This document shows positions 2,081 to 34,127 of a stretch of DNA of 64,000 bases, piece by piece. Below the pieces are notes generated by a model. That model was not told the origin of the DNA. It searched no databases and saw only the letters and a list, made by a program, of their open reading frames with translations. The stretch is taken from the NCBI GenBank assembly GCA_026745465.1, contig JACYXH010000785.1:97501-161500 (forward strand), read 5' to 3'. The DNA is from Lota lota. Taxonomy: Eukaryota > Chordata > Actinopteri > Gadiformes > Lotidae. Each line of letters opens with the position of its first letter. Positions within the stretch are counted from its first letter, which is position 1. The translations under genes were made by a program, and so were the position numbers.

Positions 2081-3110
2081 AAGGGGATAGGAGAGTCTAG
2101 TGGTCAGGGGGTCGACTCCCGTCCGAACGGTCCTGGGTTCAATCCCCAATGTCCGCAGTCTAGCTGTAGGCATCTTTGAACTCACCCCTACCTGCTCCTT
2201 AATGACCTGTCTCTGTACTGTCTAACCCCTACCTGCTCCTTAATGACCTGTCTCTGTACTGTCTAACCCCTACCTGCTCCTTAATGACCTGTCTCTGTAC
2301 TGTCTAACTCCTACCTGCTCCTTAATGACCTGTCTGTACTGTCTAACCCCTACCTGCTCCTTAATGACCTGTCTCTGTACTGTCTGACCCCTACCTGCTC
2401 CTTAATGACCTGTCTATGTACTGTCTAACCCCTACCTGCTCCTTAATGACCTGTCTCTGTACTGTCTAACCCCGTCCTGCTCCTAAATGACCTGTCTCTG
2501 TACTGTCTAACCCCTACCTGCTCCTCAATGACCTGTCTCTGTACTGTCTAACCCCTACCTGCTCCTCAATGACCTGTCTCTGTACTATCTAACCCCTACC
2601 TGCTCCTTAATGACCTGTCTCTGTACTGTCTAACCCCTACCTGCTCCTTAATGACCTGTCTCTGTACTGTCTAACCCCTACCTGCTCCTTAATGACCTGT
2701 CTCTGTACTGTCTAACCCCTACCTGCTCCTTAATGACCTGTCTCTGCACTGTCTAACCCCTACCTGCTCTTTAATGACCTGTCTCTGTACTGTCTAACCC
2801 CTACCTGCTCCTTAATTACATGGATCTGTACTGTCTAACCCCTACCTGCTCCTCAAAGACATGGATCTGTACTGTCTAACCCCCTACCTGCTCCTTAATG
2901 ACCTGTCTCTGTACTGTCTAACCCCTACCTGCTCCTTAATGACCTGTCTCTGTACTGTCTAACCCCTACCTGCTCCTTAATTACCTGTCTGTACTGTCTA
3001 ACCCCTACCTGCTCCTTAACGACCTGTCTCTGTACTGTCTAACCCCTACCTGCTCCTGAATGACGTACATCTTAAAATGTAAGTCACTTTGGATAAAGTG
3101 TGCTAAATGG
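2081..3110 (+). mobile_element. tRNA-derived SINE with expanded body (copy 1)
   Basis: The head carries an A-box-like GTCTAGTGGTCAGG and a Pol III B box GGTTCAATCCC at 2136-2146, as in tRNA-derived SINEs. The body enters a 41-bp tandem array at 2185. The element ends at 3061-3110 with TGTAAGTCACTTTGGATAA then GTGCTAAATGG, the L2-type 3' tail shared by many teleost SINEs. Head and tail bracket the array, so the array grew inside one SINE. Exact ends were judged by eye. Confidence 0.85.
2185..3060 (+). repeat. 41-bp minisatellite inside SINE copy 1, ~21 units
   Basis: Units of 41 bp begin CCCCTACCTGCTCCTTAATG and continue ACCTGTCTCTGTACTGTCTAA. Most are nearly identical. A few units (about 2815-2880) read ACATGGATCTGTACTG instead, and some lack a CT. 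The same unit occurs at 4.35, 6.8 (inverted) and 33.7 kb. Confidence 0.95.
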
Positions 3111-3393
3111 CCGCAGAGTGAAAGTGTAAAAATGCCAGGCATAGTTCTGCGTACCTTGGAGACCTCGCGTGCAGATGTTGCAGATGTTGTGAGAACCGCC
3201 CTGTCCGGTTTACCAGACGACACGTGTTTCATTAGCTGAGCACCTTCGTTACTGGGCTGGCAACACCTCCGCCCGGGCCATCATGAGATGTGAGTGCAGA
3301 GTTGCTGGTGCTGGTGCTGGTGGTGCTGGTGGTGGAGGAGAGGGCTTCCAGACCCTCGGACCTCCTGAAGACCTTCTAATGCCTTCCACAGCT
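3111..3393. other. Unique spacer with short (GCTGGT)n
   Basis: Mostly unique sequence with a short GCTGGTGGTGCTGG-type run at 3300-3340. No coding evidence. Confidence 0.5.
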
Positions 3394-4300
3394 GGGCCAC
3401 GACTCGGTCTCTGGCCGGCCCTGTGGAGGTCCTAGTGGGCCACGACTCGGTCTCTGGCCGGCCCTGTGGAGGTCCTAGTGGGCCACGACTCGGTCTCTGG
3501 CCGGCCCTGTGGAGGTCCTAGTGGGCCACGACTCGGTCTCCGGCCGGCCCTGTGGAGGTCCTAGTGGGCCACGACTCGGTCTCCGGCCGGCCCTGTGGAG
3601 GTCCTAGTGGGCCACGACTCGGTCTCTGGCCGGCCCTGTGGAGGTCCTAGTGGGCCACGACTCGGTCTCCGGCCGGCCCTGTGGAGGTCCTAGTGGGCCA
3701 CGACTCGGTCTCTGGCCGGCCCTGTGGAGGTCCTAGTGGGCCACGACTCGGTCTCCGGCCGGCCCTGTGGAGGTCCTAGTGGGCCACGACTCGGTCTCTG
3801 GCCGGCCCTGTGGAGGTCCTAGTGGGCCACGACTCGGTCTCTGGCCGGCCCTGTGGAGGTCCTAGTGGGCCACGACTCGGTCTCTGGCCGGCCCTGTGGA
3901 GGTCCTAGTGGGCCACGACTCGGTCTCTGGCCGGCCCTGTGGAGGTCCTAGTGGGCCACGACTCGGTCTCTGGCCGGCCCTGTGGAGGTCCTAGTGGGCC
4001 ACGACTCGGTCTCTGGCCGGCCCTGTGGAGGTCCTAGTGGGCCACGACTCGGTCTCCGGCCGGCCCTGTGGAGGTCCTAGTGGGCCACGACTCGGTCTCT
4101 GGCCGGCCCTGTGGAGGTCCTAGTGGGCCACGACTCGGTCTCTGGCCGGCCCTGTGGAGGTCCTAGTGGGCCACGACTCGGTCTCTGGCCGGCCCTGTGG
4201 AGGTCCTAGTGGGCCACGACTCGGTCTCTGACCGGCCCTGTGGAGGTCCTAGTGGGCCACGACTCGGTCTCTGGCCGGCCCTGTGGAAGTCCTAATGGGC
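3394..4300. repeat. 43-bp minisatellite, ~21 copies
   Basis: Tandem 43-bp units start GGGCCACGACTCGGTCTC and contain GGCCGGCCCTGTGGAGGTCC. Copies are almost identical. The main variation is a single C/T site (TCTCTGG or TCTCCGG), where the C form creates CCGGCCGG. The two forms are interspersed. The last units carry GACCGG and GGAAGTCCTAAT variants. GC-rich, with no shared sequence with the adjacent SINE arrays. Confidence 0.97.
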
Positions 4301-4344
4301 CTGTTTGGTAGGAAACACTTTGGCCGTCGTCCTAAAGACTCAAG

Positions 4345-4835
4345 TAATCCTTAATGACCTGTCTCTCTACTGTCTAACCCTTACCTGCTCCTTAATGACC
4401 TGTCTCTGTACTGTCTAACCCCTACCTGCTCCTTAATGACCTGTCTCTGTACTGTCTAACCCCTACCTGCTCCTTAATGACCTGTCTCTGTACTGTCCAA
4501 CCCCTACCTGCTCCTCAATGACCTGTCTCTGTACTGTCCAACCCCTACCTGCTCCTTAATGACCTGTCTCTGTACTGTCTAACCCCTACAGTCTCCTTAA
4601 TGATATGTCTCTGTACTGTCTAACCCCTACCTGCTCCTCAATGACCTGTCTCTGTACTGTCCAACCCATACCTGCTCCTCAATGACCTGTCTCTGTACTG
4701 TCTAACCCCTACCTGCTCCTCAATGACCTGTCTCTGTACTGTCCAACCCATACCTGCTCCTTAATGACCTGTCTCTGGATTCACTGTATGTCTCTTTGCA
4801 AGCATCTGCTAAATGAATAAATGATGAATAAAATG
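4345..4835 (+). mobile_element. SINE 3' part with expanded body (copy 2, no head)
   Basis: About ten 41-bp units of the SINE body (about 4348-4775) run into a 3' tail, GGATTCACTGTATGTCTC then GCAAGCATCTGCTAAATGAA. No A/B-box head is visible; the left edge abuts a short spacer after the 43-bp array. It is either a 5'-truncated insertion or a broken part of a larger duplicated copy. Confidence 0.8.
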
Positions 4836-5645
4836 TAATGTAGGTAACATTAATCCTGTAAAGAACACAAAGTAAAGAGATTCATAATTTAATCAGAACA
4901 CTATCCAACAGGCTAGTGGTTCTTAGAAGCTCATCTCCTCATGTTCATGAGGTCGTTCAGCTGTTTGTTTTATTCATTTAAATAGTAGTATGCATACTGT
5001 TTGGTCTAAGGGACTATGTGGACGTTGTTCATTTTAAATTGATCCAGTGTTGAGGGAGAATGTTGCCGTGGTAATCTGTGAAACGAGCTGCAATGTGATC
5101 CTCTTGGAAAGTGACGCCCTGTCAGTCTGCGTCCTCTCAATGTGACCTCTGACCTCCTGAGAGTGTGTTTATACGGGTCTGACGACATTATGGAGAGGAT
5201 AATCCAACTTTATTCTTCACCTTTTGCTTGATCCGGTGTGTTTTGTTTTTGTATCTAACCAAATGCCTAAGGAAAAAGCTTCTTAGAAGTCATCCTTTGT
5301 AGTAATCCTATTATTATTACTTTCACTCTGTCGTTTTTTGTGAGAAGCGTTGTTTACAACCAGTGGCCATGTTGGGTTTGTTTAGTGTTCTGAGAATGTA
5401 AGCCACAGGAATGTTGTGGAGATAATATCGTTCCAAAATGGTTGCAGTTTAGGATCAACACATTTTTCCTGACGTGTTTAAGTGTGGCGGTGATGCTGAT
5501 AAAGTGAATTTGTGATGATTAAGACAAACTGGCGTGAAGTTTTTAAGTGTCTTGCACTTCAAAACTTGATCCGTGACCAGGAATCTACACTTTAAATGTT
5601 TTGTGATGCGGTACAACGGAAAACACAACAACTAGGCCTCTTCAT
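4836..5645. other. A+T-rich unique sequence, no gene
   Basis: About 800 bp of unique A+T-rich sequence separates a SINE from a 21-bp array. Only short open frames occur. No motif or domain recognised. Confidence 0.5.
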
Positions 5646-5649
5646 GCTA

Positions 5650-6175
5650 GCCTGATGACTGCATGAATCTGGTAGATGACTGCTTTCATCTGGTTGATGA
5701 CTGCATGATTCTGGTTGATGACTGCATGATTCTGGTTGATGACTGCATGAATCTTGTTGATGACTGCATGCATCTGGTTGATGACGGCATGAATCTGATA
5801 GATGACTGCATGATTCTGGTTGATGACTGCATGATTCTGGTTGATGACTGCATGAATCTGGTAGATGACTGCATTCATCTGGTTGATGACGGCATGATTC
5901 TGGTTGATGAGTTCATGAATCTGGTTGAGGACTGCATGATTCTGGTTGATGACTGCATGATTCTGGTTGATGACTTCATGAATCTGGTTGATGACGGCAT
6001 GATTCTGGTTGATGACTACATGAATCTGGTTTTTGACTGCATGAATCTGGTTGATGACTGCATGATTCTGGTTGATGACTGCATGATTCTGGATGATGAC
6101 TGCATTAATCTGGTTGATGACAACATGAATCTGGTAGATGACTTCATGAATCTGGTTGATGACGGCATGATTGTG
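5650..6175. repeat. 21-bp minisatellite, ~25 copies
   Basis: Tandem units of 21 bp, typically GATGACTGCATGATTCTGGTT, with many point variants (GAATCTG, TTCATG, GACGGCATG). The unit is seven codons long, so both strands stay open; the plus strand reads as repeats of Met-Ile/Asn-Leu-Val-Asp-Asp-Cys. This explains most of the 378-codon frame at 5663-6799. I treat it as non-coding. Confidence 0.95.
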
Positions 6176-6397
6176 GCTGCGGGCGTTTGGGCCAGCTCTG
6201 TACTTACGGAGTGCAGTAAAAGTAGTACATCAGCGCTGCAGTACAGAGCTGAATCCTGCCTTAGTTCCCACGAGCAGAGGGCCCAGCAGAGCCATAGACC
6301 CAGCGGTCTCCTTGTTCTGATCAAACCCATTGAGCCAGAACCACCGCCCAGGCTGGCCGCCGGTCCGGGGCTGGGCGTCCCCCTCCTGGCCCAACTG

Positions 6398-6775
6398 GAC
6401 CAGGGAAGGCCTGCTGGGACTCTGGGAGCTGGTCCACTGTTCACTACTGAGGACCAGGGAAGGCCTGCTGGGACTCTGGGAGCTGGTCCACTGTTCACTA
6501 CTGAGGACCAGGGAAGGCCTGCTGGGACTCTGGGAGCTGGTCCACTGTTCACTACTGAGGACCAGGGAAGGCCTGCTGGGACTCTGGGAGCTGGTCCACT
6601 GTTCACTACTGAGGACCAGGGAAGGTCTGCTGGGACTCTGGGAGCTGGTCCACTGTTCACTACTGAGGACCAGGGAAGGCCTGCTGGGACTCTGGGAGCT
6701 GGTCCACTGTTCACTACTGAGGACCAGGGAAGGCCTGCTGGGACTCTGGGAGCTGGTCCACTGTTCACTACTGAA
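6398..6775. repeat. 54-bp minisatellite, 7 near-identical copies
   Basis: Seven 54-bp units begin GACCAGGGAAGGCCTGCTGG. One unit differs by GGTCTG for GGCCTG. The unit is 18 codons, so frames on both strands remain open and fuse with the 21-bp array frame through an open ~220-bp linker. The near-identity suggests recent homogenisation. Confidence 0.96.
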
Positions 6776-6804
6776 GCCTTTAGCTCACGCTTCATCTGAA
6801 TTCA

Positions 6805-7570
6805 GACCCAGGTCATTAAGGAGCAGGTAGGGGTTAGACAGTACAGAGACAGGTCATTAAGGAGCAGGTAGGGGTTAGACAGTACAGAGACAGGTCATTA
6901 AGGAGCAGGTAGGGGTTAGACAGTACAGAGACAGGTCATTAAGGAGCAGGTAGGGGTTAGACAGTACAGAGACAGGTCATTAAGGAGCAGGTAGGGGTTA
7001 GACAGTACAGAGACAGGTCATTAAGGAGCAGGTAGGGGTTATACAGTACAGAGACAGGTCATTAAGGAGCAGGTAGGGGTTAGACAGTACAGAGACAGGT
7101 CATTAAGGAGCAGGTAGGGGTTAGACAGTACAGAGACAGGTCATTAAGGAGCAGGTAGGGGTTATACAGTACAGAGACAGGTCATTAAGGAGCAGGTAGG
7201 GGTTAGACTGTACAGAGACAGGTCATTAAGGAGCAGGTAGGTGTTAGACAGTACAGAGACAGGTCATTAAGGAGCAGGTAGGGGTTAGACAGTACAGATA
7301 CAGGTCATTAAGGAGCAGGTAGGGGATAGACAATACAGATTAATTCCATTAAGGGGCAGTTATGGGTTAGACAGTACAGATTAATGTAATCAAGGAGCAG
7401 GAAGGGGTTAGACAGCACAGATTAATGTTATTAAGGAGCAGGTAGGGGTTAGACAGTACAGATTAATGTCACTAAGGAGCAGGTAGGGTAGGGGTCATCT
7501 CACTCTATTAGAGGCCTACAGGTAGACTGGGGACTGTTGGGGTTGGAACGCAGAACCTTTTGATGGGAGT
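6805..7570 (-). mobile_element. SINE with expanded body, inverted (copy 3)
   Basis: Read on the minus strand, the head near 7570-7500 resembles the 23-kb SINE head (AAAAGGTTCTG then CCAACCCCAA, and later GATGACCCCTACC). About 16 of the 41-bp units follow, ending near 6811 at CTTAATGACCTGGGTCTGAA. The L2-type tail is missing, so this copy is truncated at its 3' end. Head-proximal units carry an ATTAATCTGTACTG variant unlike the distal ones. The B box is degenerate. Confidence 0.8.
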
Positions 7571-7812
7571 CAAACACCCTAATAACTGCTTATCGCTCTC
7601 TATCATCGATCATGTCTCATTCAGATGTGTGGAGGTCAGAGGTGAACGTGTTAGCTTGCGCTTGGGAGGGACGATGGTTTCTGTTTCCCAGAGACATGAG
7701 GCTCCACCCCTCACCATCAGAGGTTTCAGCGAGCCGTTAGTTCATCAAGCTTCTCCTCTTAGAGAATAACCAGACGTGAGGAGCTAAGATAGGCCTTTGA
7801 TGCCCCACTTTC
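7571..7812. other. Unique spacer
   Basis: Unique sequence, no gene recognised. Short frames only. Confidence 0.5.
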
Positions 7813-8285
7813 TCACACACACATGCACGCACGCACACACACATACACTAACACACACACGCACGCACGCACACACACACACATACACTAACACACACAC
7901 ACGCACACACACACATACACTAACATACACACACGCACGCACACATACACTAACACACACACGCACGCACACACACATACACTAACACACACACATACAC
8001 TAACACACACACATACACTAACACAAACACACACATGCACGCACACACACACACACGCACTCGCACACACATTCGCACACACTAACACACACACACATAC
8101 ACTAACACACACACACGCACGCACACATACACTAACACACACACACACGCACGCACACACACATACACTAACACACACACATACACTAACACAAACACAC
8201 ACATGCACGCACACACACACACACGCACTCGCACACACATTCACACACACTAACACACACACACACACTAACACACAAACACACA
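7813..8285. repeat. Interrupted (CA)n/(GCAC)n array
   Basis: CA-rich with regular ATACACTAACACACACAC modules and GCACGC interruptions. A block including TGCACGCACACACAC then GCACTCGCACAC occurs twice, near 8030 and 8208, indicating higher-order duplication. The Cys-Val and Thr-His frames are repeat translation. Confidence 0.96.
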
Positions 8286-8640
8286 GTAGTAATAATGCTA
8301 TTTATTTTTTCAATAAGTAAACGAAGTATTTTAAATGCACACGGCTGTATGAAATAACAAATGGATAGACAGGATAAGTACATTTTGTCTCTCTTACTTG
8401 TAACTTCATATTTGTTGATTTCTAATGCAGTCAGCTTCTGTGGCGTCCCCTGGTGGCCATCCTGGGACAAAACAGTCTGGTACAACACGAATAAGGCAAC
8501 CAAACAAAACAATATTGAATATGCATAACGATGTCTACGCTATGTAGGTATGTCTGGAGCTACGGTGAGCCAGATAGGACAATCATAAATCAGCAGGAGA
8601 AGCTGTTAGAGTAATACTGATTCAGACATGGAGGAATGTT
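8286..8640. other. Unique sequence carrying a CTCF-like motif
   Basis: A+T-rich unique sequence between the CA array and a polypurine tract. It contains the motif at 8442-8456. No coding evidence. Confidence 0.5.
8442..8456 (-). promoter_or_regulatory. CTCF-like motif 1 (minus)
   Basis: The minus strand reads CCACCAGGGGACGCC, one mismatch from the vertebrate CTCF core CCASYAGRKGGCRSY as I recall it, with TGG upstream as in the extended motif. CTCF is the insulator protein that anchors chromatin loops. Binding is inferred only from sequence. Confidence 0.5.
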
Positions 8641-8962
8641 ACGGGGGGCGAGGAGGAGGAGAGAAGGAAAGGAGGAGAGGAGGGGAGGAGGGGAGGAGGA
8701 GGAGGAGAGGAGGGGAGGAGGAGAGGAGGAGAGGAGCAGAGGAGAGGAGGAGAGGATGAGATAATGAGGGAGGAGGAGGAGGAGGGGAGGAGGAGATAAT
8801 GAGGAGGAACAGGAGGTTGAGGAGGAGGAGAGGAGGACGAGATGGAGGAGAGGAGAAGAAGAGGAGGAGGATGAAAGGAGGAGGAGGAGCAGACGGTTGA
8901 GGAGAAGAGGAGGAGGAGAGAAGGGGGGAGGGGAGGGAGGAGGAGGATGAGGGGGTCCCTCG
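8641..8962. repeat. Polypurine GGA/GAG tract, ~320 bp
   Basis: Almost pure purine on the plus strand, built from GGAGGA, GAGGAG and GGGGAGG blocks with few pyrimidines. It is able to form triplex or G-quadruplex structures. The Ser/Pro/Leu frames on the minus strand are low complexity. Confidence 0.95.
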
Positions 8963-9100
8963 AGGGTCATTCTGGAGGATGAGGTGGCGAGACGGTGTCT
9001 TCCTCTGGAGGATGAGGAGGAGTAAACTCTTCCTCACCTGGAGAGAGCTGGTTCAGATCCAGCCGGGTTTAGTGTCAGTAGAGACTCTGCAGCGTCAGAC

Positions 9101-10815
9101 TGGGTTATAACAGTGAGGTCGTGGGTCATGTGATTATAACAGTGAGGTCATGTGATTATAACAGTGAGGTCGTGGGTCATGTGATTATAACAGTGAGGTC
9201 ATGTGATTATAACAGTGAGGTCGTGTGATTATAACAGTGAGGTCGTGGGTCATGTGGTTATAACAGTGAGGTCATGGGTCATGTGATTATCACACTGAGG
9301 TCATGTGATTATAACAGTGAGGTCGTGGGTCATGTGATTATAACACTGAGGTCATGTGGTTATAACAGTGAGGTCGTGGGTCATGTGATTATAACAGTGA
9401 GGTCATGTGGTTATAACAGTGAGGTCGTGGGTCATGTGATTATAACAGTGAGGTCATGTGATTATAACAGTGAGGTCGTGGGTCATGTGGTTATAACCGT
9501 GAGGTCGTGGGTCATGTGATTATAACAGTGAGGTCGTGGGTCATGTGGTTATAACAGTGAGGTCATGTGGTTATAACAGTGAGGTCGTGGGTCATGTGGT
9601 TATAACAGTGAGGTCATGTGATTATAACAGTGAGGTCGTGGGTCATGTGGTTATAACAGTGAGGTCATGTGATTATAACAGTGAGGTCGTGGGTCATGTG
9701 GTTATAACAGTGAGGTCATGTGATTATAACAGTGAGGTCATGTGATTATTACAGTGAGGTCGTGAGTCATGTGATTATAACAGTGAGGTCATGTGATTAT
9801 AACAGTGAGGTTGTGGGTCATGTGATTATAACAGTGAGGTCGTGGGTCATGTGATTATAACAGTGAGGTCATGTGATTATAACAGTGAGGTCGTGGGTCA
9901 TGTGATTATAACAGTGAGGTCGTGGGTCATGTGATTATAACAGTGAGGTCATGTGGTTATAACAGTGAGGTCATGTGATTATAACAGTGAGGTCGTGGGT
10001 CATGTGGTTATAACAGTGAGGTCGTGGGTCATGTGATTATAACAGTGAGGTCATGTGATTATAACAGTGAGGTCGTGGGTCATGTGGTTATAACAGTGAG
10101 GTCGTGGGTCATGTGATTATAACAGTGAGGTCATGTGATTATAACAGTGAGGTCATGGGTCATGTGATTATAACAGTGAGGTCGTGGGTCATGTGATTAT
10201 AACAGTGAGGTCGTGGGTCATGTGGTTATAACAGTGAGGTCGTGGGTCATGTGGTTATAACAGTGAGGTCATGTGATTATAACAGTGAGGTCGTGGGTTG
10301 TGTGATTATAACAGTGAGGTCGTGTGATTATAACAGTGAGGTCATGTGATTATAACAGTGAGGTCATGTGATTATAACAGTGAGGTCGTGGGTTGTGTGA
10401 TTATAACAGTGAGGTCGTGTGATTATAACAGTGAGGTCGTGAGTCATGTGATTATAACAGTGAGGTCATGTGATTATAACAGTGAGGTTATGTGATTATA
10501 ACAGTGAGGTCGTGGGTCATGTGATTATAACAGTGAGGTCATGTGATTATAACAGTGAGGTCGTGGGTCATGTGATTATAACACTGAGGTCATGTGATTA
10601 TAACAGTGAGGTCGTGGGTCATGTGATTATAACAGTGAGGTCGTGGGTCATGTGGTTATAACAGTGAGGTCGTGGGTCATGTGGTTATAACAGTGAGGTC
10701 GTGGGTCATGTGGTTATAACAGTGAGGTCGTGTGATTATAACAGTGAGGTCGTGGGTCATGTGGTTATAACAGTGAGGTCGTGGGTCATGTGATTATAAC
10801 AGTGAGGTCGTGGGT
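9101..10815. repeat. 22/29-bp modular minisatellite, ~1.7 kb
   Basis: The core unit is GATTATAACAGTGAGGTC plus ATGT (22 bp). Many units add GTGGGTC to give 29 bp. The added segment is flanked by GGTC on both sides, so long and short forms can interconvert by slippage. Point variants (GGTTATAAC, CACTGAGG, GGTTGTG) are scattered. About 65 units. The Val-Ile-Thr-Val-Arg-Ser frames are repeat translation. Confidence 0.96.
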
Positions 10816-11045
10816 TGTGTGTGTGCTCGTGTTTATGTCATGGGGGTCAGCTTCATCGTGACGATGAGGACACGTCTTGTTCATTTAGAAATCAACTTTC
10901 TACTTTTTCTAGAGTCAGTAACTGAGCTGACTGGGAGCCAATCGCTGCCTTGTCTGCCCTGTGACATCACCAGTCTCTCTTCTGTGTGTTTGTTACCGTT
11001 CGCATTTATGAGATTACATCATTTACAAAATGTGTACCCCAGATT
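10816..11045. other. Unique spacer
   Basis: Unique sequence with no gene recognised. A 127-codon frame here is extended only by the following (TG)n. Confidence 0.5.
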
Positions 11046-11058
11046 ATGTGTGTGTGTA

Positions 11059-11141
<83 letters not shown>

Positions 11142-11142
11142 G
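11046..11142. repeat. (TG)n microsatellite
   Basis: TG dinucleotide run with ATGTATG near the left end. Confidence 0.98.
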
Positions 11143-11216
11143 TTGCTACTGTGTTTAGTTTGTTCAGTGATAGCTACATCTACTGCTCTATGAATATTTA
11201 GAGCAGTCACCTACAA

Positions 11217-11281
11217 CATCATCATCATCATCAGCATCATCATTATTATCATCACCATCTTCATCATCATCATTAATAATT
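11217..11281. repeat. (ATC)n/(ATT)n trinucleotide tract
   Basis: CATCATCATC passing into TTATTATC and back, about 65 bp, imperfect. Confidence 0.9.
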
Positions 11282-11765
11282 AGGCAGCGTGTCGTTTATA
11301 AATCGGATTACGTCACCAGTCATTTAAATCCGGACCGATTTCCTCACCTCTAGCGCCCTCTGCTGTTAAAAGCGTTAACATCAAGCCCCATTTGTTAAAA
11401 CCATTAAACCATTTTGTTCTTTGCGGTACGCTCTTCTGCCAATATTGCCATACAGGAATATCAAATGTACAAGCCTAAGGACATACAAATATAATGATTT
11501 AAAAAACACGATCATTTTGGTTTTAAAAGCCCCATGTCTATAAAGCCGTCTTATTATGTCTGCGTGTTGTCCTGAGTGACGTCTGGAACAGATTCAAATA
11601 TCGACTGTCTTCTAATGGTCTTCTAGTGCTCAGCCTTTAGGAGGGACGCTTTCAATATCAAGGCTTATCATTCGCCTGCTTACATTTGAAACCAACGTCA
11701 ACATTTTCTGAACCATTACAGAATTAGCCCTATTTTAGTTTCTCACTTGCTATATTAATAACAAT
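11282..11765. other. Unique sequence with CTCF-like motif
   Basis: About 480 bp of unique sequence; the left part holds the motif at 11352-11366. No long open frame. Confidence 0.5.
11352..11366 (-). promoter_or_regulatory. CTCF-like motif 2 (minus)
   Basis: The minus strand reads ACAGCAGAGGGCGCT, one mismatch at position 1 from CCASYAGRKGGCRSY, with TAGAGG after it. AGCGCCCTCTGCTG on the plus strand is a typical CTCF signature. Confidence 0.55.
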
Positions 11766-11767
11766 AA

Positions 11768-11792
11768 ATGTGTGTGTGTGTGTGTGTGAACG

Positions 11793-11845
<53 letters not shown>

Positions 11846-11898
11846 TGGGTGTGTGAACGCCGTGTGTGTGTGTGTGAGTGTGAGTGGGTGTGTGAACG

Positions 11899-11949
<51 letters not shown>

Positions 11950-11955
11950 TGTGCT
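11768..11955. repeat. (TG)n with repeated GTGAACGCC spacers
   Basis: TG tract interrupted three times by GTGAACGCC and by GAGTGGGTGTG, giving a duplicated composite structure. Confidence 0.95.
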
Positions 11956-11999
11956 TGTTCCTCACTGATGCTGTCCAGAGGGCTTGGCTGAAAATCAGA

Positions 12000-12026
12000 T
12001 CACACACACACACACACACACACAAA

Positions 12027-12085
<59 letters not shown>
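12000..12085. repeat. (CA)n microsatellite, inverted to the preceding (TG)n
   Basis: CA tract with one AAACC interruption. It lies about 45 bp after a (TG)n tract, so the two can pair as a long hairpin. Confidence 0.97.
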
Positions 12086-12171
12086 GACACACATACAGTA
12101 AATAGTTTTCTGTCCAACTGGAAAAGTTCCAGCGTGTGATATTCAGACAAGCGAGGATTAGCTAGCGGGCT

Positions 12172-12240
12172 AAATATATATATATATTTATATCATGTTT
12201 ATCTTTGTTTCTTTAGATATATATTTATATATATATACAT
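12172..12240. repeat. A+T-rich (TA)n region
   Basis: Two TATATATATT-type blocks flank a short TTGTTTCTTTAG spacer. Probable simple-sequence DNA. Confidence 0.85.
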
Positions 12241-12283
12241 TACCGTCTATCAAACTCCTCATCACGTCTAGGGACCTGTGTTA

Positions 12284-12582
12284 TCAGAGAGAGACAGAGA
12301 GTGAGGGAGACAGGGAGAGGGTGAGAGGCAGAGAGAGGAGAAAGAAAGAGAGAGAGGGAGACAGAGAGAGAGAGAAACAGGGATAGAGGGATAGAGAGAG
12401 GGGAGAGAGAGAGACAGAAATACAGAGACAGAGAGAGAGAACAATAGAGAGGGATAGAGGGAGAGAGAGAGCGAGAGGGAGAGAGGAGAAAGAAAGAGAC
12501 AGAGAGAGAACAATAGAGAGGGATAGAGGGAGAGAGAGCGAGAGGGAGAGAGGAGACAGAAAGAGACAGAGAGTGGGAGACA

Positions 12583-12626
<44 letters not shown>

Positions 12627-12734
12627 AAATAGAGGGTGAGAGAGGGAGAGAGAGATGGAGAGAGGGGAGAGAGAGAGACAGAAATACAGAGACAGAGAGA
12701 GAGAACAATAGAGAGAGAGAGAGCGAGAGAGAGA

Positions 12735-12814
<80 letters not shown>

Positions 12815-12815
12815 G
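12284..12815. repeat. Imperfect (GA)n polypurine tract, ~530 bp
   Basis: GA-rich throughout, with repeated blocks such as GACAGAGAGAGAGAACAATA and GGGATAGAGGGAGAG, ending in pure (GA)n at about 12740-12808. Duplicated sub-blocks show unit-level amplification. No gene. Confidence 0.95.
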
Positions 12816-15005: not shown

Positions 15006-15452
<447 letters not shown>

Positions 15453-23045: not shown

Positions 23046-23210
23046 GGACGGGATAGTGTAGGGGTTAGCCAAAAGTTTCTGGGTTCGATTCCCAATGTCC
23101 ACCTGGAGGCATCCTAGAGCAAGATGACCCCTGACCCCTACCCGCTCCTCAATGATCTGGGTTCACTGTAGAGCTCTTTGGATGAGAGTGTCTGCTAGAC
23201 GACTAAATGT
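23046..23210 (+). mobile_element. tRNA-derived SINE, unexpanded (copy 4)
   Basis: Head with B box GGTTCGATTCC at 23082-23092, a body containing GACCCCTACCCGCTCCTCAA once, and an L2-type tail AGCTCTTTGGATGAGAGTG then TCTGCTAGACGACTAAATG. About 165 bp. This copy shows what the SINE looks like without the 41-bp expansion found in the other four. Confidence 0.85.
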
Positions 23211-23812: not shown

Positions 23813-24072
23813 GTGAGCCGTTTACTCACGGGACGTAGATCACGAACGCTTGCATTAAAAGAAACGACTTATTGAAATCAATGGAGAAATGTACACGTTG
23901 CAGTGCTTTGTACCCAGAAAGAACCGCAGCTCCCCGTGTGCTTGGCAGGGTTTACGGGCCGGTGTTGGCCTTTCCAACATGGCGGCGACGTTGACGTAGG
24001 TTTCCAAGGCCGGGGCGGCCTGCATGTGTTGATGTTGTCTACCTGAAGAAAGGAAGATGGCGCTCATTCACT
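23813..24072. other. Unique sequence with two YY1-like motifs
   Basis: Unique sequence with YY1-like CCAACATGGCGGC (23974-23986) and AAGATGGCG (24054-24062), both plus, and a CRE-like TTGACGTAGG between them. Such motifs are often just downstream of transcription starts in vertebrate promoters, but no exon is visible. Confidence 0.4.
23974..23986 (+). promoter_or_regulatory. YY1-like motif
   Basis: CCAACATGGCGGC matches the CAANATGGCGGC consensus of the zinc-finger factor YY1. Binding is inferred only. Confidence 0.45.
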
Positions 24073-24476
24073 CTAACTGGTACCCTTTACTCTCCGTATG
24101 CCCGCTCATCAGTTAAGCTAACTGGTACCCTTTACTCTCCGTATGCCCGCTCATCAGTTAAGCTAACTGGTACCCTTTACTCTCCGTATGCCCGCTCATC
24201 AGTTAAGCTAACTGGTACCCTTTACTCTCCGTATGCCCGCTCATCAGTTAAGCTAACTGGTACCCTTTACTCTCCGTATGCCCGCTCATCAGTTAAGCTA
24301 ACTGGTACCCTTTACTCTCCGTATGCCCGCTCATCAGTTAAGCTAACTGGTACCCTTTACTCTCCGTATGCCCGCTCATCAGTTAAGCTAACTGGTACCC
24401 TTTACTCTCCGTATGCCCGCTCATCAGTTAAGCTAACTGGTACCCTTTACTCTCCGTATGCCCGCTCATCAGTTAG
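24073..24476. repeat. 45-bp minisatellite, 9 identical copies
   Basis: Nine units of 45 bp begin CTAACTGGTACCCTTTACTC and contain TCCGTATGCCCGCTCATCAG. I see no differences between copies apart from the last few bases. Perfect identity implies very recent amplification, recent homogenisation or an assembly effect. Confidence 0.97.
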
Positions 24477-24597
24477 GACATGCACACACACACACAATAA
24501 CACACACACACACACACAATAACACACACACACACAATAACACACACACACACACACAATAACACACACACACACACAATAACACACACACACAAAC

Positions 24598-24628
<31 letters not shown>

Positions 24629-24668
24629 ATAACACACACACACACACACACACACAATAAACACACAC

Positions 24669-24709
<41 letters not shown>

Positions 24710-24856
24710 AACACACAATAACACACACACAATAACTCACACACACACACACACACACACAATAACACACACACAATAACACACAAACACAATAACACAC
24801 AAACACAATAACACACACACACACACACAATATAACACACACACACACACACACAC
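24477..24856. repeat. (CA)n array with AATAA interruptions
   Basis: CA runs separated by AATAACACAC at irregular intervals (about 20 interruptions). This is a compound microsatellite formed by repeated copying of the AATAA-bearing unit. Confidence 0.96.
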
Positions 24857-24969
24857 GTCCTCACCCTCTCATCACGGTTCCATAAGCGCCATCATGTCGT
24901 CACCCTCTCATCACGGTTCATGTCGTCACCCTGGGCCGGGGGGGTGGGGGGGGGGTGAGGGGGGGGAGT
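24857..24969. repeat. Short direct repeat and G-rich stretch
   Basis: CACCCTCTCATCACGGTTC occurs twice (about 24863 and 24901), followed by CATGTCGTCACCCT variants. A G-rich tract with several G6-G9 runs follows at 24935-24967. Confidence 0.85.
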
Positions 24970-25260
24970 CGTACAGCGCCGCTCTGCCGGCTCAGCCGAG
25001 CGGTAAATGACATTGTTTAGCTATCAAAAGCGCGGCGTAATTACATTTGCACCATCCAGAGGCAGGCGTGCGGCGGAGGGCAGGCAGCAGTAGCGTGATC
25101 ACAGGAGCCCGGCCCCCGGCCCCCCCGGGGGGCCAACCAGCCCATTATTATGGAAATGACCTCGGGGAGGGCTCGGATCAGGGGGATAAGAGGAGCTTGT
25201 AATCCAGCCGGCGACGCGCGGCGCGGGGACAGCCGCCACTGTAGCTTGTTAGCGTGTGTT
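24970..25260. other. Candidate conserved non-coding element
   Basis: Unique block with balanced composition and homeodomain-type sites, for example GTAAATGACATTGTTTAGC and GCGTAATTACATTTGCACC, then CCCATTATTATGGAAATGAC. This texture is typical of vertebrate enhancer-like CNEs. Conservation itself is not testable here. Confidence 0.35.
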
Positions 25261-25869
25261 AGCATGTGTTAGCAGAGGTACAGATGACACATGGGCTTCG
25301 CCGAGAGAAAGCTACAGTGTGTAGCTTTTTATTTAATCAATCGTTCTGCAGAGAACCGTGCGTAGCAGTGTGTTAGCGTGCTAGCATGTGTGCTAACATG
25401 TGTGCGAACACGTGTCAGCCGAGATGGCTACTTTGCAGCTTTTATTAAAGTAAACGTATAATATTGTAATATGGTGAGGATGGTTTGAATGTTAACCCCA
25501 CCCCCACTCAGATTTGTGTTGATCATCTTTTGATATGATTAATATTTTGTTTATTGTGAAATTAAGACGTATTGATTTATTACCAATACTTTGATGTGAC
25601 CAACGAGAGCGGCAACATGAAACCAAAAGTATTTCATATCCGGTTTCTTAAGCAGACAAGTAGGGTGATAGTAGTGTTAAGTAGTGTGATTGTGTGCTTG
25701 TGTTAGACCATTAGTATGGATGACCAGGCCTGCGTAGTTTATGGTAGGTGGGATGACTAGTCGTAGAGAAGGTTCAGGTTACTGTATTTGTAACATCCAA
25801 AACACATCCAGGTTAGTTAATGCTCCTGCCGGTGCCCTTGACCAAGGCACTAGGCAGTGCCTGGAGTTG
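25261..25869. other. Unique A+T-rich sequence
   Basis: Repeated GTGTTAGCGTG/GTGTTAGCATG words near the left edge, then unique A+T-rich sequence. No gene. Confidence 0.45.
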
Positions 25870-27295
25870 GTCCCCGGCCCACTGCTCCCAGTGCTGCTAG
25901 TGATGGTTAAATGCTCCTAGTGATGGTTAAACGCTCCCAGTGCGGCTAGTGATGGTTAAATGGTCCTAGTGATGGTTAAATGCTCCCAGTGCGGCTAGTG
26001 ATGGTTAAATGCTCCTAGTAATGGTTAAATGCTTCTAGTGATGGTTAAATGGTTTTAGTGCTGCTAGTGATGGTTAAATGTTCCTAGTGATGGTTAAATG
26101 CTCCTAGTGCTGCTAGTGATGGTTAAATGCTCCTAGTGATGGTTAAATGCTCCTAGTGCTGCTAGTGATGGTAAAATGCTCCTAGTGATGGTTAAATGTT
26201 CCTAGTGATGGTTAAATGCTCCTAGTGATGGTTAAATGCTCCTAGTGCTGCTAGTGATGGTAAAAGGCTCCTAGTGATGGTTAAATGCTCCTAGTGATGG
26301 TTAAATGGTTTTAGTGCTGCTAGTGATGGTTAAATGCTCCTAGTGCTGCTAGTGATGGTTAAATGCTCCTAGTGCTGCTAGTGATAGTTAAATGGTTTTA
26401 GTGCTGCTAGTGATGGCTAAATGCTCCTAGTGCTGCTAGTGATGGTTAAATGCTCCTAGTGATGGTTAAATGCTCCTAGTGCTGCTAGTGATGGTTAAAT
26501 GCTCCTAGTGATGGTTAAATGCTCCTAGTGCTGCTAGTGATGGTTAAATGCTCTAGTGCTGCTAGTGATGGTTAAATGCTCCTAGTGATGGTTAAATGCT
26601 CCTAGTGATGGTTAAATGCTCCTAGTGCTGCTAGTGATGGTTAAATGGTTTTAGTGCTGCTAGTGATGGTTAAATGTTCCTAGTGCTGCTAGTGATGGTT
26701 AAATGCTCCTAGTAATGGTTAAATGCTTCTAGTGATGGTTAAATGGTTTTAGTGCTGCTAGTGATGGTTAAATGCTCCTAGTGCTGCTAGTGATGGTTAA
26801 ATGCTCCTAGTGCTGCTAGTGATGGTTAAATGCTCCTAGTGCTGCTAGTGATGGTTAAATGCTCCTAGTGCTGCTAGTGATGGTTAAATGCTCCTAGTGA
26901 TGGTTAAATGGTTTTACTGCTGCTAGTGATGGTTAAATGCTCCTGGTGCTGCTAGTGATGGTTAAATGGTTTTACTGCTGCTAGTGATGGTTAAATGCTC
27001 CTAGTGCTGCTAGTGATGGTTAAATGCTACTAGTGATGGTTAAATGCTCCTAGTGCTGCTAGTGATGGTTAAATGCTCCTAGTGCTGCTAGTGATGGTTA
27101 AATGCTCCTAGTGCTGCTAGTGATGGTTAAATGCTCCTAGTGCTGCTAGTGATGGTTAAATGCTCCTAGTGATAGTTAAATGGTTTTAGTGCTGCTAGTG
27201 ATGGTTAAATGCTCCTAGTGCTGCTAGTGATGGTTAAATGCTCCTAGTGCTGCTAGTAATGGTTAAATGCTCCTAGTGCTGCTAGTGATGGTTCA
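25870..27295. repeat. 20/29-bp modular minisatellite, ~1.4 kb
   Basis: Core unit CTCCTAGTGATGGTTAAATG (20 bp). Long units add CTGCTAGTG after CTAGTG to give 29 bp, so the extra 9 bp is bounded by CTAGTG repeats. Variants include GGTTTTAGTG and GTTCCTAGTG. About 55-60 units. Early units at the left edge are degenerate (GTGCGGCTAGTG). Confidence 0.96.
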
Positions 27296-28200
27296 AAGCA
27301 GAGATCTCATTTCGTTGTACAGTACGATAGTACTACAGTGACAAATATAGAATCTTCTTCTTCTTCTACCCCGTTGGTCGATTTGGTTCGCAGTAGACGA
27401 AACATCCACCTTGACACACGCCGTAGGTTCCAGTCATGGCTCAGTCCTCTAGCACTATGAGATAAAGAAAGCGCTTCTCTGTCATCTGTGCATGTTGCTA
27501 AGACCTGTTCATCTGAGTGACGGCCGCTGGAACAAAGCTACTTTCATACAGCTTTGTTCTGCGCTTTGAGACGGCAAACCCTCGTCCAGAAGGAAGGAGC
27601 TGAACTCCGTGTGCAAAGGGTGGGTGGGTGGGGGGGGGGGGGGTGGTGTCTTTGATTTAAGGTGGAGTCAGTTACTCCGCTGACCTGGGACGCTGGCTTA
27701 AGCTTCGACCCACCCCTCGGCCAACGAGAACATTTGCCAATTGGATGCGGAGGGTTTCGGCTCGCTAAATTGTCTGAGCGGTGTGCACAGTGGGAGCGTA
27801 CCGCGGCCGTGGTGCTAGCGCAGCTAGCATTCACACGAGTAGAACCCGGGTGAGGGAACCGGCCTGTGCCGTGCGGGTTATCGGATGTGCTCCGGTGGTA
27901 CGGAGGCTGGCCTGCTGGAGCTCAGAGGCAGCGGCTCGCGGAGGATTACCGGCGTCAAGACGAATCCTCCATCGTGTTTGTTTTCTAGGCCCGGCTTTGA
28001 TGCGGCTTCACACAGTCAACCGTCGGCTTCCTACCACTTCCTGACGAACAAGTCGATGGATTCCATTAGTGGGGGGTGAGGTGGTGGGGGGGGGGGGGAG
28101 TCGAGTTGAAGAGGTACGAGGCTGCAGGCGCATGCTCCCGTGATGAGGAGAGAGGAGACGCTTTTACACCACAGAGGAAACTTCAAGTGCACTAGTCGAC
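27296..28200. other. Unique sequence with short G runs
   Basis: Unique sequence with a (TTC)n patch at 27353-27367 and G runs at 27630-27643 (14) and 28086-28098 (13). CpG-richer from 27680 to 28000. Frames of 60-96 codons are not recognisable. Confidence 0.5.
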
Positions 28201-28389
28201 AGGATGAGTAAGGTTATATATAGATCTCTTCAGCAAACGCGCCTAAATCTCGGAGATACAGGCTGGATGTATCGGTTAGCAAAACCTCCGGTCTTCTAAG
28301 AGGGTTATGTAGCGATGTCTGTGTCTCTTTAGGAAACCCCAAACTGTTGAGAGGGTTGAAATGTCGACCGGTTGTAAATATCTGCATCT
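28201..28389. repeat. Degenerate left edge of 47-bp array
   Basis: Weak, diverged relatives of the 47-bp unit: TTATATATAGATCTCTTC, GCGATGTCTGTGTCTCTTTAG and AATATCTGCATCTCTTTAG. Consistent with an older array edge decaying into unique sequence. Confidence 0.5.
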
Positions 28390-28600
28390 CTTTAGAGGAG
28401 CGTGTTTCTTAAACTGTGGGTCAGGACCCGGAATGGGTCGCGATCCAGTTGGGTCGCTACCTGACAGTAGGACCCGTGTAAGGAAGGGATTGCCTATGTG
28501 GGTGCCAGAGGGTTGTTAGTCTGCGCTGATTGGGTCCCACACACACTGACCTTGTCTTTGGGTCCCGAGATGAAAAGGCTTAAGAAGCTCTGCTTTAGAG
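28390..28600. mobile_element. hAT-type MITE with 8-bp target-site duplication
   Basis: A ~195-bp insertion (28398-28592) has inverted ends: GTTTCTTAAACTGTGGGTC at the left, and CAGAGCTTCTTAAGCC when the right end is read in reverse. The interior has GGGTCGCGATCC and GGGTCCCGAGATG, as in non-autonomous hAT elements of vertebrates. CTTTAGAG flanks both sides (28390-28397 and 28593-28600), the 8-bp duplication typical of hAT insertion. No transposase. It lies at the edge of the 47-bp array. Confidence 0.75.
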
Positions 28601-29255
28601 GGTATAGACTAGTTATATATAGATGATATAGCTGTATCTAATTAGTGGGTATAGACTAGTCATATATAGATGATATAGCTGTATCTAATTAGTGGGTATA
28701 GACTAGTCATATATAGATGATATAGCTGTATCTAATTAGTGGGTATAGACTAGTTATATATAGATGATATAGCTGTATCTAGGTAGAGGGTATAGACTAG
28801 TCATATATAGATGATATAGCTGTATCTAGGTAGAGGGTATAGACTAGTTATATATAGATGATATAGCTGTATCTAATTAGAGGGTATAGACTAGTCATAT
28901 ATAGATGATATAGCTGTATCTAGGTAGAGGGTATAGACTAGTTATATATAGATGATATAGCTGTATCTAATTAGTGGGTATAGACTAGTTATATATAGAT
29001 GATATAGCTGTATCTAGTTAGAGGGTATATACTAGTTATATATAGATGATATAGCTGTATCTAATTAGTGGGTATAGACTAGTCATATATAGATGATATA
29101 GCTGTATCTAGGTAGAGGGTATAGACTAGTTATATATAGATGATATAGCTGTATCTAGGTAGAGGGTATAGTTATATAGATTACATAGCAGTACCTCGTT
29201 AAAGTGTATGTACTGGTTATATATAGATTGATATATAGCTGTCTCTTGTTGGAGG
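28601..29255. repeat. 47-bp minisatellite, ~12 core copies plus decayed end
   Basis: Units of 47 bp contain GGGTATAGACTAGTTATATA and TAGATGATATAGCTGTATC. Variation is confined to CATATA/TATATA and the TAATTAGTG/TAGGTAGAG ends. After 29163 the units degenerate (GATTACATAGCAGTACC, GATTGATATATAGC). A+T-rich, with frequent CTAG and TATA. Confidence 0.95.
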
Positions 29256-30133
<878 letters not shown>

Positions 30134-30151
30134 GGGGGGGGGGGGGGGGGG
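30134..30151. repeat. Poly(G) tract of 18 nt
   Basis: Uninterrupted G run. Confidence 0.95.
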
Positions 30152-30360
30152 TGATGTTAGCGTGTGTCTCCCCCTCCTCCCAACAACACGGCAGCAGATG
30201 GGAGGATGAGGGGTGAGGAAGACTTTACCTCCGAGGTGGTAACAGTGAAGACCCTCATTAACACTGAATTTACCACTTCGTTAGCGCCACGCGCTTCCTG
30301 TAGCGCGCCGCGCCGCGTCGCACCCACTCCTCGGAGCATACATTACAGTCTAAATAAACC

Positions 30361-30487
30361 CTGGACTCCTCCTCCTGCTCCTCCTCCTGCTTCTCCTCCT
30401 GCTCCTGCTCCTCCTCCTCCTGCTCCTCATCCTCCTGCTCCTCCTGCTGCTCCTCCTCCTGCTCCTCCTCCTCCTGCTCCTCCTCCA
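30361..30487. repeat. (CTCCTG)n/(CTC)n polypyrimidine array
   Basis: TCCTCCTGCTCCTCC-type modules. The Glu/Gln-rich minus frame and Pro/Ala-rich plus frame are low complexity. Confidence 0.95.
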
Positions 30488-30630
30488 TCAGGCTCCCTGC
30501 GCACGTCTACCTCCTCCTCCTCGCACCAGCATGCTCCTCGTCGCCGCTGTGTTTGTCAATAAAGTTCTAACGGCTGGATGTTGCACGGAATAATCGGTGA
30601 TGAATTGTGAGGTGAAACACACACTGTATG

Positions 30631-30633
<3 letters not shown>

Positions 30634-30668
<35 letters not shown>
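30634..30668. repeat. (TG)n microsatellite
   Basis: Short TG run, followed by about 90 bp of unique sequence before a second TG run. Confidence 0.97.
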
Positions 30669-30670
<2 letters not shown>

Positions 30671-30755
30671 ACGCGTTTGTATGTGTGTCATATGCTTCAG
30701 GAAGGGTGTGTTGCCAAATTGTGGCAAAGATTGGCGCAGCGTTGCCGTGCCGACA

Positions 30756-31749
<994 letters not shown>

Positions 31750-32160
31750 CTGCTGCCTCCTCCTCCTCCTCCTACAACTCTATCACTACCCCCACTACTA
31801 CCACCATCTTTCCTCCTCCATTTACTCCTCCTCCTCCACCTCCTCCTCCTACAACTCTATCACTACCCCCACTACTACCACCATCTCTCCTCCTCCTCCT
31901 CCTACAACTCTATCACAACCCCCACTACTACCACCATCTCTCCTCCTCCTCCTCCTACAACTCTATCACAACCCCCACTACTACCACCATCTCTCCTCCT
32001 CCTCCTCCTACAACTCTATCACAACCCCCACTACTACCACCATCTCTCCTCCTCCTCCTACAACTCTGTCACTACCCCACTACTACCACCATCTTTCCTC
32101 CTCCTCCTCCTCCTACAACTCTATCACAACCCCCACTACTACCACCATCTTTCCTCCTCC
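31750..32160. repeat. 51-54-bp pyrimidine-rich minisatellite
   Basis: Units of 51-54 bp contain TCCTACAACTCTATCAC, CCCCCACTACTACCACC and ATCTCTCCTCCTCC. The (TCC)n part varies in length. About 7 copies. Confidence 0.93.
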
Positions 32161-32720
32161 TCCTCCTCCTCCTCCTCCTCCACCCCCACTACTAGAACTA
32201 CTACCATCTCACCACCACCATCACCCCCTACATATAACCACCACTTCCCCCACTGCTACCACCAACCCCACAAATCACCCCCCCTGCATATAATAACCAC
32301 CATCACCCCCACGAGCACTACTAGTACCACCTTCTCCACCACCACCCTCTCCACCACCACCACCTCCTCCTCCATCCCCTCTACTAGTACCACCTTCTCC
32401 ACCACCACCCTCTCCACCACCTCCTCCTCCATCCCCTCTACTAGGGTCACCACCACCACCCTCTCCTCCACCACCACCTCCTCCTCCATCCCCTCTACTA
32501 GTACCACCTTCTCCACCACCACCCTCTCCACCACCTCCTCCTCCATCCCCTCTACTAGGGTCACCACCACCACCTTCTCCACCACCACCACCTCCTCCTC
32601 CATCCCCTCTACTAGGGTCACCACCACCACCCTCTCCTCCACCACCACCACCACCTCCTCCTCCTCCATCCCCTCTACTAGGGTCACCACCACCACCTCC
32701 ACTGCCACCCCCATCTCCGT
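32161..32720. repeat. (CCA)/(TCC) array with CTACTAG modules
   Basis: Repeats built from CACCACCACCCTCTCC, CCTCCTCCTCCATCCCC and TCTACTAGGGTCACC or TCTACTAGTACCACC. This gives a 359-codon Ser/Thr-rich plus frame and a Val/Glu-rich minus frame. I regard both as repeat translation. Confidence 0.93.
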
Positions 32721-33660
32721 CACCGACTCCTCCACCCCTAAAGAGAAGGTGTCTGAGCTGCCTGATCCCTGGCCATCAGTGGCTGGGCTCCGACCTCATG
32801 ACCGCTGGCTAGGGCTGGACCAGTAAGGCGATGGACGACAGGACGCTGTGAACTGGTGAGCACCGTGTTTTTGAACACGGAGACGCTGAGGTTGTCGTGA
32901 CGACACTGCAGGGAGCCACTGACACACGACGCAGTAAAACGGAGGAGATGGAGCCTACACCACCTAAAATAATGATAATAATAATAAGCCCAAGATGGAG
33001 ATAACCGCTAAAACTGGCAGCGTGTTATTTAAAGGTGGCATTACCCACGCAGATAGATTACACAAACAAGTGTTTTTCCTCGTCGTGGAGTAAAGAAATT
33101 GCCAACACGTGGGCACTCTGAGCTCTGGAGTTTCACAGCGTCTCCGTGGCGACGGAGCCGACGACAGCGCCGGTGATTTTAGGAAGCACAGCAGCGTATT
33201 AATAGCACTGCGGGAAGGCTTGTAATGAGGAGAATGACCCCGAACGCGACGACGCAAGGAGCGGGAACGATGGGGCGCCGGTCGGTTCGGATTCTGCCGC
33301 GCGTTCCGAGCGTTCCAAGCGTTCCGAGCGGAACGTGCGTTCCGAGCGTTCCGAGTGGAACGTGCGGCACTCATTTCCTCCAGACGTGTGATGTATCATT
33401 TAGACGGGCATAATCAGGGGAACTACTGGAACCTTTCACAGCCTTTTATGTGCGGGGCCGTGTGGGCGTCTGCTGTGCGCCGGCGACATTGTTATTCATG
33501 TAGTGAGGAGAGGAAGACGAGGAGGAGGAGGAGGAGGAGGAAGTGATAGGGAACGATCTGGGATCACACAGCAACCGGAAGATGTGAGGATCTGCTGAGG
33601 GACCGAGCCGACCGTTAGCTGAACTGGAGATGCTTGATGGCTAGCGATTGAACACGAAAG
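32721..33660. other. Unique sequence with GCGTTCCGAG decamers
   Basis: Unique block with GC-rich patches. A short decamer repeat is at 33296-33364, a (GAG)n at 33513-33542 and TAATAATAATAA at 32968-32986. No gene recognised. Confidence 0.5.
33296..33364. repeat. Decamer GCGTTCCGAG repeat with inverted GGAACG
   Basis: GCGTTCCGAG/GCGTTCCAAG units repeat about six times and are broken twice by GGAACGTGCG, which pairs with CGCACGTTCC-type neighbours. The TTCC..GGAA spacing gives local inverted symmetry. Confidence 0.8.
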
Positions 33661-34127
33661 TGGGGGCAGCGATAGTCTGGTTGTCCAGCCTAAAGGTTCT
33701 GGGTTCGATCCCCAATGCCCCTAGCCCCTACCTGCTCCTTAATGACCTGTCTCTGTACTGTCTAACCCCTACCTGCTCCTTAATGACCTGTCTCTGTACT
33801 GTCTAACCCCTACCTGCTCCTTAATGACATGTCTCTGTACTGTTAAACCCATACCTGCTCCTTAATGACCTGTCTCTGTACTGTCTAACCCCTACCTGCT
33901 CCTTAATGACCTGTCTCTATACTGTCTAACCCCTACCTGCTCCTTAATGACCTGTCTCTGTACTGTCTAACCCCTACCTGCTCCTTAATGACCTGTCTGT
34001 ACTGTCTAACCCCTACCTGCTCCTTAATGACCTGTCTCTGTACTGTCTAACCCCTACCTGCTCCTTGATGAAATGGATCCGAAATCGCTGTATGTTGCTT
34101 TTGATAAAAGGGGTTTGCTAAATTCTT
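33661..34127 (+). mobile_element. SINE with expanded body (copy 5)
   Basis: Head with B box GGTTCGATCCC at 33702-33712. About eight 41-bp units (33725-34067) follow. The L2-type tail is TGTATGTTGCTTTTGATAAA then GGGTTTGCTAAATTC to about 34127. Same architecture as copy 1, with a shorter array. Confidence 0.85.

Follow-up and report, generated by a model that had tools for sequence, protein, structure and literature searches.

The window examined here, a 64-kb stretch of contig JACYXH010000785.1 (numbered here 1-64000), contains five copies of one short interspersed element (SINE), and in four of them a 41-bp segment of the SINE body has become a tandem array. We labeled the copies A (2.1 kb), B (4.3 kb), C (inverted, 6.8-7.6 kb), D (33.7 kb) and E (23 kb), and all results concern these five copies within this one window. 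The arrays are a SINE-derived minisatellite family, a description that implies no host function. The reading we favor, to which we assign a probability of roughly 0.55, is that the body segment was duplicated a single time, that the SINE was dispersed, that the arrays grew in place, and that a young unit variant was homogenised across the loci.

Four arrays of one 41-bp unit within copies of a SINE

Using Tandem Repeats Finder (TRF), we located the 41-bp arrays at 2184-3064 in copy A (21.6 copies), 4348-4777 in copy B (10.5), 6809-7488 in copy C (16.6, the unit reading on the minus strand) and 33721-34071 in copy D (8.6). A search of the window with the unit consensus returned 44 matches at ≤3 mismatches, and the same search of 100 shuffled windows returned none, so we discarded a chance origin. 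Copy E, on the plus strand at 23050-23205, is a complete SINE composed of a head, a single unexpanded segment (approximately 23134-23170) and a tail; the 41-bp unit aligns to the middle of this copy, where head and tail enclose it, over 34 bases of which 30 agree, and with one gap of 3 bases. Because the unit matches this single segment, and because a SINE head, a tail or both adjoin the arrays, the arrays are derived from the body of the SINE.

Head and tail are both found at copies A and D. In copy A, on the plus strand, a tRNA-related head (2084-2183), which matches the heads of C, D and E and carries the B-box-like sequence GGTTCAATCCC, precedes 21 complete units and one partial unit (2184-3064) and an L2-type tail (3065-3115). 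Copy D, also on the plus strand, has a head at 33668-33721, 8 complete units with partial ends at 33722-34075 and a tail of the same type at 34076-34127; approximately 30-35 bp that lie between head and array position in A and E are missing from it. Copy B (plus strand) retains only the tail (4787-4850), and its array of 10 complete units (4348-4786) starts inside a unit. On the minus strand, copy C has a head at 7497-7605, an array of 16 complete units at 6812-7496, and at best a weak, decayed remnant of a tail at 6779-6811, uncertain in that, in comparisons with the A, B, D and E tails, as high a score was reached by 7, 28, 77 and 38 of 300 shuffles, respectively. These observations bear out the layout given in the original prediction, made from the same DNA, which had described 41-bp arrays in four of five SINE copies, a lone segment in the 23-kb copy, head and tail on either side of the arrays at 2.1 and 33.7 kb (here recognised by their mutual matches), and a 4.3-kb copy without a head, where we likewise obtained no head match. 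Its further statement that the inverted copy lacks a tail agrees with our failure to find a clear one there, and has to be qualified by the possible remnant.

The copies were related to each other through their ends. Every pair among the heads of A, C, D and E aligned better than all 300 shuffles (6/6 pairs), and the same was true for five of the six pairs among the tails of A, B, D and E, the D-E pair being equalled by 2 of 300. A B-box-like pattern, GGTTCRANYCC, is present in three of the four heads, at 2136 (A), 23082 (E) and 33702 (D), and was absent from the head of copy C in the pattern scan. A fourth match to the pattern was found at 36621, outside the recognised SINE copies. Neither ARAGORN nor Rfam reported a tRNA in the window, for which the heads are possibly too decayed, and what points to a tRNA origin of the heads is the B box only. 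We take the tail to be of the L2 type on the basis of a match to an L2-type tail consensus; nhmmer matched this consensus only at four of the five copies, with E-values (0.0009, 0.06, 0.08 and 1.3) that are individually weak.

One unit consensus and one join

We compared the 55 complete units (21 from A, 10 from B, 16 from C and 8 from D), leaving the partial end units out of all unit counts. The consensus sequences of the four loci agree at 41 of 41 positions, and units identical to this consensus are present at every locus (9/21 in A, 2/10 in B, 8/16 in C and 3/8 in D, 22/55 in total). Period, phase and the join between adjacent units, ACTGT|CTAACCCC, are also common to the four arrays. Given one consensus and one join at all four arrays, the first 41-bp duplication most likely occurred once. 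In copy E, the two segment ends have, by inspection, only about 3 bases in common, an approximate figure as E is diverged, so that four independent duplications at exactly this join are unlikely.

The units of different loci are close to each other. Their mean between-locus distance is 0.077, or 0.052 after removing six older-type units, and within-locus distances range from 0.05 to 0.09. Clustering by locus was not significant when judged by unit distance, either with all units (P 0.18) or with the 49 young ones (P 0.086). A unit tree, built on 41 columns and containing no well-supported branch, gave 15 changes when labeled by array position, a value obtained without a shuffle control.

Pooled over pairs of loci, units are more alike than the SINE ends beside them

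If the arrays had been dispersed by the SINE and left unchanged, units and ends should differ to the same extent between loci. Aligned over their whole length, heads are 59-73% identical and tails 58-71%, with copy E included and part of a unit included in the tails. For a direct contrast we took, for the copies with arrays, only the best local alignments; these are short (15-76 bp) and trimmed in a way that favors the flanks; copy E and the possible tail of C were left out, as was the headless B from the head comparisons. Transversions between loci amounted to 33/235 (14.0%) in heads and tails versus 4.3% in the units, a difference with a naive P of 4e-9, and of approximately 5e-5 once counts were halved because pairs share copies and are not independent. 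When CpG-affected columns were removed, 32 of 207 positions (15.5%) differed in the ends versus 7.1% in the units (naive P 3e-5, and 0.0025 with halved counts). Pooled over pairs, the units appear younger than their host copies by a factor of two to three.

A second contrast in age is found inside copy C, whose array holds two age classes of units side by side. Units 2-5, beside the head, share a local motif and are diverged (13 private changes over 164 bases); units 6-17 are near-identical (6 over 492; Fisher P 6e-5, for a grouping made after inspecting the units). Older-type units are also present inside the array of A (units 16 and 17), and the final, partial unit of D has an older appearance.

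These observations suggest the following course of events. A 41-bp body segment of a tRNA-headed, L2-tailed SINE would have been tandemly duplicated in one event, as the common join and period indicate, and SINE copies with the duplicated body would have been dispersed by retroposition. The arrays would have grown and shrunk in place by unequal exchange or slippage, since their unit numbers differ and copy C contains two age classes. Finally, a young unit variant, with CCTGTCTCTG mid-unit, may have replaced or outgrown the older units at all four loci, a spread proposed because units are more alike between loci than SINE ends; the simplest means would be gene conversion from one array to another or the reinsertion of DNA from an array.

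We also searched for marks of retroposition at the individual copies. The longest stretch matching at both ends, as expected for a target-site duplication, had 6 bases at A (a match as long occurring in 17.5% of random pairs), 7 at B (3.3%), 5 at C (48%) and 5 at D (51%). Thus no target-site duplication stands above chance at A, C or D, and candidates at B and E are weak. That of B is a TAATCCT pair at 4345-4351, where it overlaps the first bases of the array, and 4851-4857 (both plus strand); together with the start of this array inside a unit, it may hint at a 5′-truncated insertion beginning in the array. The search for such duplications around the arrays, proposed in the original prediction, thus produced one weak candidate among the array-bearing copies. 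TTTT, the stop signal of RNA polymerase III, is absent from copies A, B, C and E and occurs once in D, near its 3′ end, so transcription through the array is at least not blocked.

Simulations

To what extent isolated loci could produce the observed units depends on their divergence. With isolated loci, neutral turnover and a divergence of 0.10-0.20, four equal consensus sequences were obtained in 0/60 runs at each of 12 settings. Without turnover the consensus sequences agreed in 93-100%, but distances between units of the same locus rose to 0.18-0.31, far above those observed. When turnover was made homology-dependent, none of 32 settings (per-lineage divergence 0.08 or 0.12, 12 runs per setting) brought the between-locus distance of isolated loci below 0.12, compared with the observed 0.077.

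Alternative explanations

Several results weigh against homogenisation between the loci. The age contrast is measured on short flanks and stems from pairs involving B and C; the A-D pair has no gap, with 4/55 CpG-cleaned flank differences (head 1/26, tail 3/29) and a unit distance of 0.052. The unit tree required 15 changes of locus, compared with 20.0 in shuffles, a value as low being obtained in 1 of 200, and most of this signal comes from copy C (5 vs 9.3). Arrays at different loci do not carry their unit variants in a common order: in all six locus pairs the agreement did not exceed that of shuffled arrays (P 0.5 or more), and we rejected variant order as a sign of copied arrays; this test would be uninformative if the units of a master had all been identical. 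Considering substitutions only, variants common to different loci number 8, with 9.9 expected by chance (P 0.89), so we rejected them too as evidence for exchange or for a master that was polymorphic, and no exchanged tract is seen. In the simulations, isolated loci at a divergence of 0.05, starting with ten units and undergoing little homology-dependent turnover, reproduced the unit data in 75% of 12 runs (distances of 0.077 within and 0.084 between loci), with arrays averaging 27 units, and at 0.03 with little turnover all four consensus sequences agreed in 74% of 150 runs. For a simple exchange model at a divergence of 0.15, the three rates used yielded four equal consensus sequences in just 0, 5 and 25% of 40 runs. 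The case for exchange thus depends on flanks older than approximately 0.05 divergence, as isolated loci fit the unit data at 0.03-0.05; the comparison of SINE ends, made on short alignments, supports flanks of such an age. Exchange between loci is something we infer, given that the exchange model did not reliably reach equal consensus sequences and common variants do not exceed chance.

The main competitor to homogenisation is a master SINE that already contained about ten or more identical units and was retroposed fairly recently, its arrays changing little afterwards and no exchange being needed; we consider this possible, though distinctly less probable. The star-like units with one consensus fit the low-turnover simulations at 0.03 and, in agreement and distances, those with a ten-unit start at 0.05, and the A-D pair, the in-unit start of B with its 7-bp candidate duplication (3.3% by chance) and the near absence of TTTT stops are all in keeping with it. 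An array retroposed and then unchanged is nevertheless disfavored, because between loci the SINE ends differ more than the units (two to three times, when pooled) and because older and young units stand side by side in C; convincing target-site duplications are also missing at A, C and D. Young units between old-looking ends would be explained without any exchange after insertion if several masters with diverged ends had acquired one expanded body by recombination or template switching, each being retroposed recently. This we regard as improbable, as it requires multiple masters and as recent insertions should carry target-site duplications, which three of the four array copies do not show above chance. 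We would offer only tentatively, as rather doubtful, the idea that old SINE copies, long dead as retroposons, acted as landing pads for a young SINE-body minisatellite moving from locus to locus, which might spread through homology with a single segment, by gene conversion or by reinsertion of circular array DNA.

It has also to be considered that each SINE copy expanded its own 41-bp segment after insertion. Human Alu elements offer a precedent for SINE segments seeding minisatellites in place (PMC3389668), and the unit numbers are unequal among loci. We nonetheless hold independent expansion to be very unlikely, since one join, one period and one consensus would have had to arise four times from segment ends with only about 3 similar bases, and since, by formula, an identical consensus would arise with a chance of approximately 2e-4 if units already diverged by 0.05 had expanded locally and late. 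The original prediction had framed the problem as a choice between a pre-expanded master and repeated expansion after insertion, to be decided by whether units cluster by locus or by array position. This choice was too narrow, and the test gave a mixed outcome, as distances did not separate the loci and the tree did to some degree. Neither of the findings that it named as contrary was seen: the unit aligns within the body of copy E, which ties the arrays to the SINE, and the loci are not segmental duplicates. Three of the four loci do lie within 5.5 kb, as segmental duplication or an assembly artefact might have it. However, when the 1.5-kb flanks were compared on the same strand, the sequence shared outside the SINE consisted of simple repeats only (judged by coordinates), plus the stretch with neighboring arrays that the adjacent copies A and B have in common; one array is inverted, and every locus has its own diverged SINE ends. 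We therefore ruled out segmental duplication of the four loci, and hardly any credence is left for the loci being duplicates of one event or an artefact of assembly.

Other minisatellites in the window

The window is rich in tandem repeats, TRF assigning 33.7% of it (1-64000) to them, 12.9% with periods up to 10 and 19.2% to complex repeats with periods of 18 or more; as no more than a lead, this recalls codfishes, in which dense short tandem repeats have been described (PMC5894186). With our own filter we recognised 19 minisatellite arrays, among which the four 41-bp SINE arrays alone have a unit in common. When array units were cross-matched (E-value up to 1e-3, low-complexity filter on), 13 of the other 15 matched nothing beyond their own array and 2 matched just an adjoining stretch. 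The region is thus rich in minisatellites, yet only the SINE-body unit is dispersed within the window.

Two other arrays are neighbors of the SINE copies. A 43-bp array (3393-4301, 21 copies, 98% matches) stops 46 bp ahead of copy B, and might have replaced the missing head of that copy; a 54-bp array (6397-6774, 7 copies, 99%) ends approximately 37 bp from the array of copy C. Further along, a 45-bp array at 24073-24475 has 9.0 copies with 100% matches, and so is very recent or converted. At 15059-15142, immediately 3′ of a GT repeat, there are 84 consecutive G, possibly real and possibly an effect of sequencing or assembly. A scan of the window for TTAGGG runs (18 bases, allowing up to 2 mismatches) found none, and none of the 10 open reading frames checked, out of 86 listed, matched Pfam. 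Exact-pattern scans of viral and prokaryotic contig collections returned 0 matches, which is little informative given the contents of those collections.

Comparison with known systems

The original prediction considered the passage from SINE to satellite DNA an unusual route, which is too strong, as SINE-derived satellites are in print (PMC10702118). In the squamate SINE-derived satellites (sSats) described by Vassetzky et al. (2023), units are 89% alike and the SINEs 64% in a cobra sample of 45 loci, and the authors describe how a library of short duplications is amplified and homogenised, a few variants coming to dominate (PMC10702118). As in sSats, part of a tRNA SINE is here tandemly repeated at several loci with one or both SINE ends beside the array, and the defining four or more tandem units at several loci are found, with 8.6 to 21.6 units at four loci. 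The greater homogeneity of units relative to SINE copies, another trait of sSats, holds in our case when pairs are pooled and in whole alignments, and not for A-D alone. Squamate arrays, as reported, range from a few units to hundreds, contain alternating subvariants at some loci, and have a subtelomeric preference (PMC10702118). They derive from the Squam1-3 SINEs and have units of approximately 67-290 nt, whereas ours has 41 bp and an L2-tailed SINE; in them one SINE end usually lies beside the array and both are uncommon, whereas both are present at two of our four arrays.

Other systems share single features with the present one. Human minisatellites derived from transposable elements, many of them from Alu, include 185 multilocus clusters among 5,932 (PMC3389668, citing Jurka and Gentles). 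As in the Alu cases, a SINE piece has turned into a minisatellite and grown by local duplication; in five of five long Alu arrays examined, however, units were closest to their own array (PMC3389668), whereas our units are roughly as similar to units from other loci. The PcH-sat of limpets, related to Nin-SINE, is likewise a satellite whose monomer holds a SINE segment, although with 179 bp, a mainly pericentromeric location and approximately 10% of the genome it is unlike our arrays (PMC11121367). In LTR12 and L1PA, a tandem array inside the element is copied along as part of its own consensus (PMC3389668). Our array differs from these in being only putatively retroposed with its element. SVA is an element with internal tandem repeats in its consensus. 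The same order of variants across loci, as SVA-like copying would leave it, was found in none of our six locus pairs.

The family is best filed with SINE-derived satellites, as a further member whose unit is shorter and which stems from another SINE, and it is a probable fish-type counterpart of those of reptiles, whose authors regard a restriction to squamates as uncertain (PMC10702118); it is the L2-type tail that suggests a teleost. No teleost SINE-derived minisatellite appeared among the titles of the literature found, which does not disprove its existence in print. SINE-derived tandem repeats would thereby be extended to a probable fish-type genome. Moreover, since the ends of the carrier SINE flank these arrays, insertion age and repeat age can be compared at one and the same locus, and this makes homogenisation among dispersed short arrays testable.

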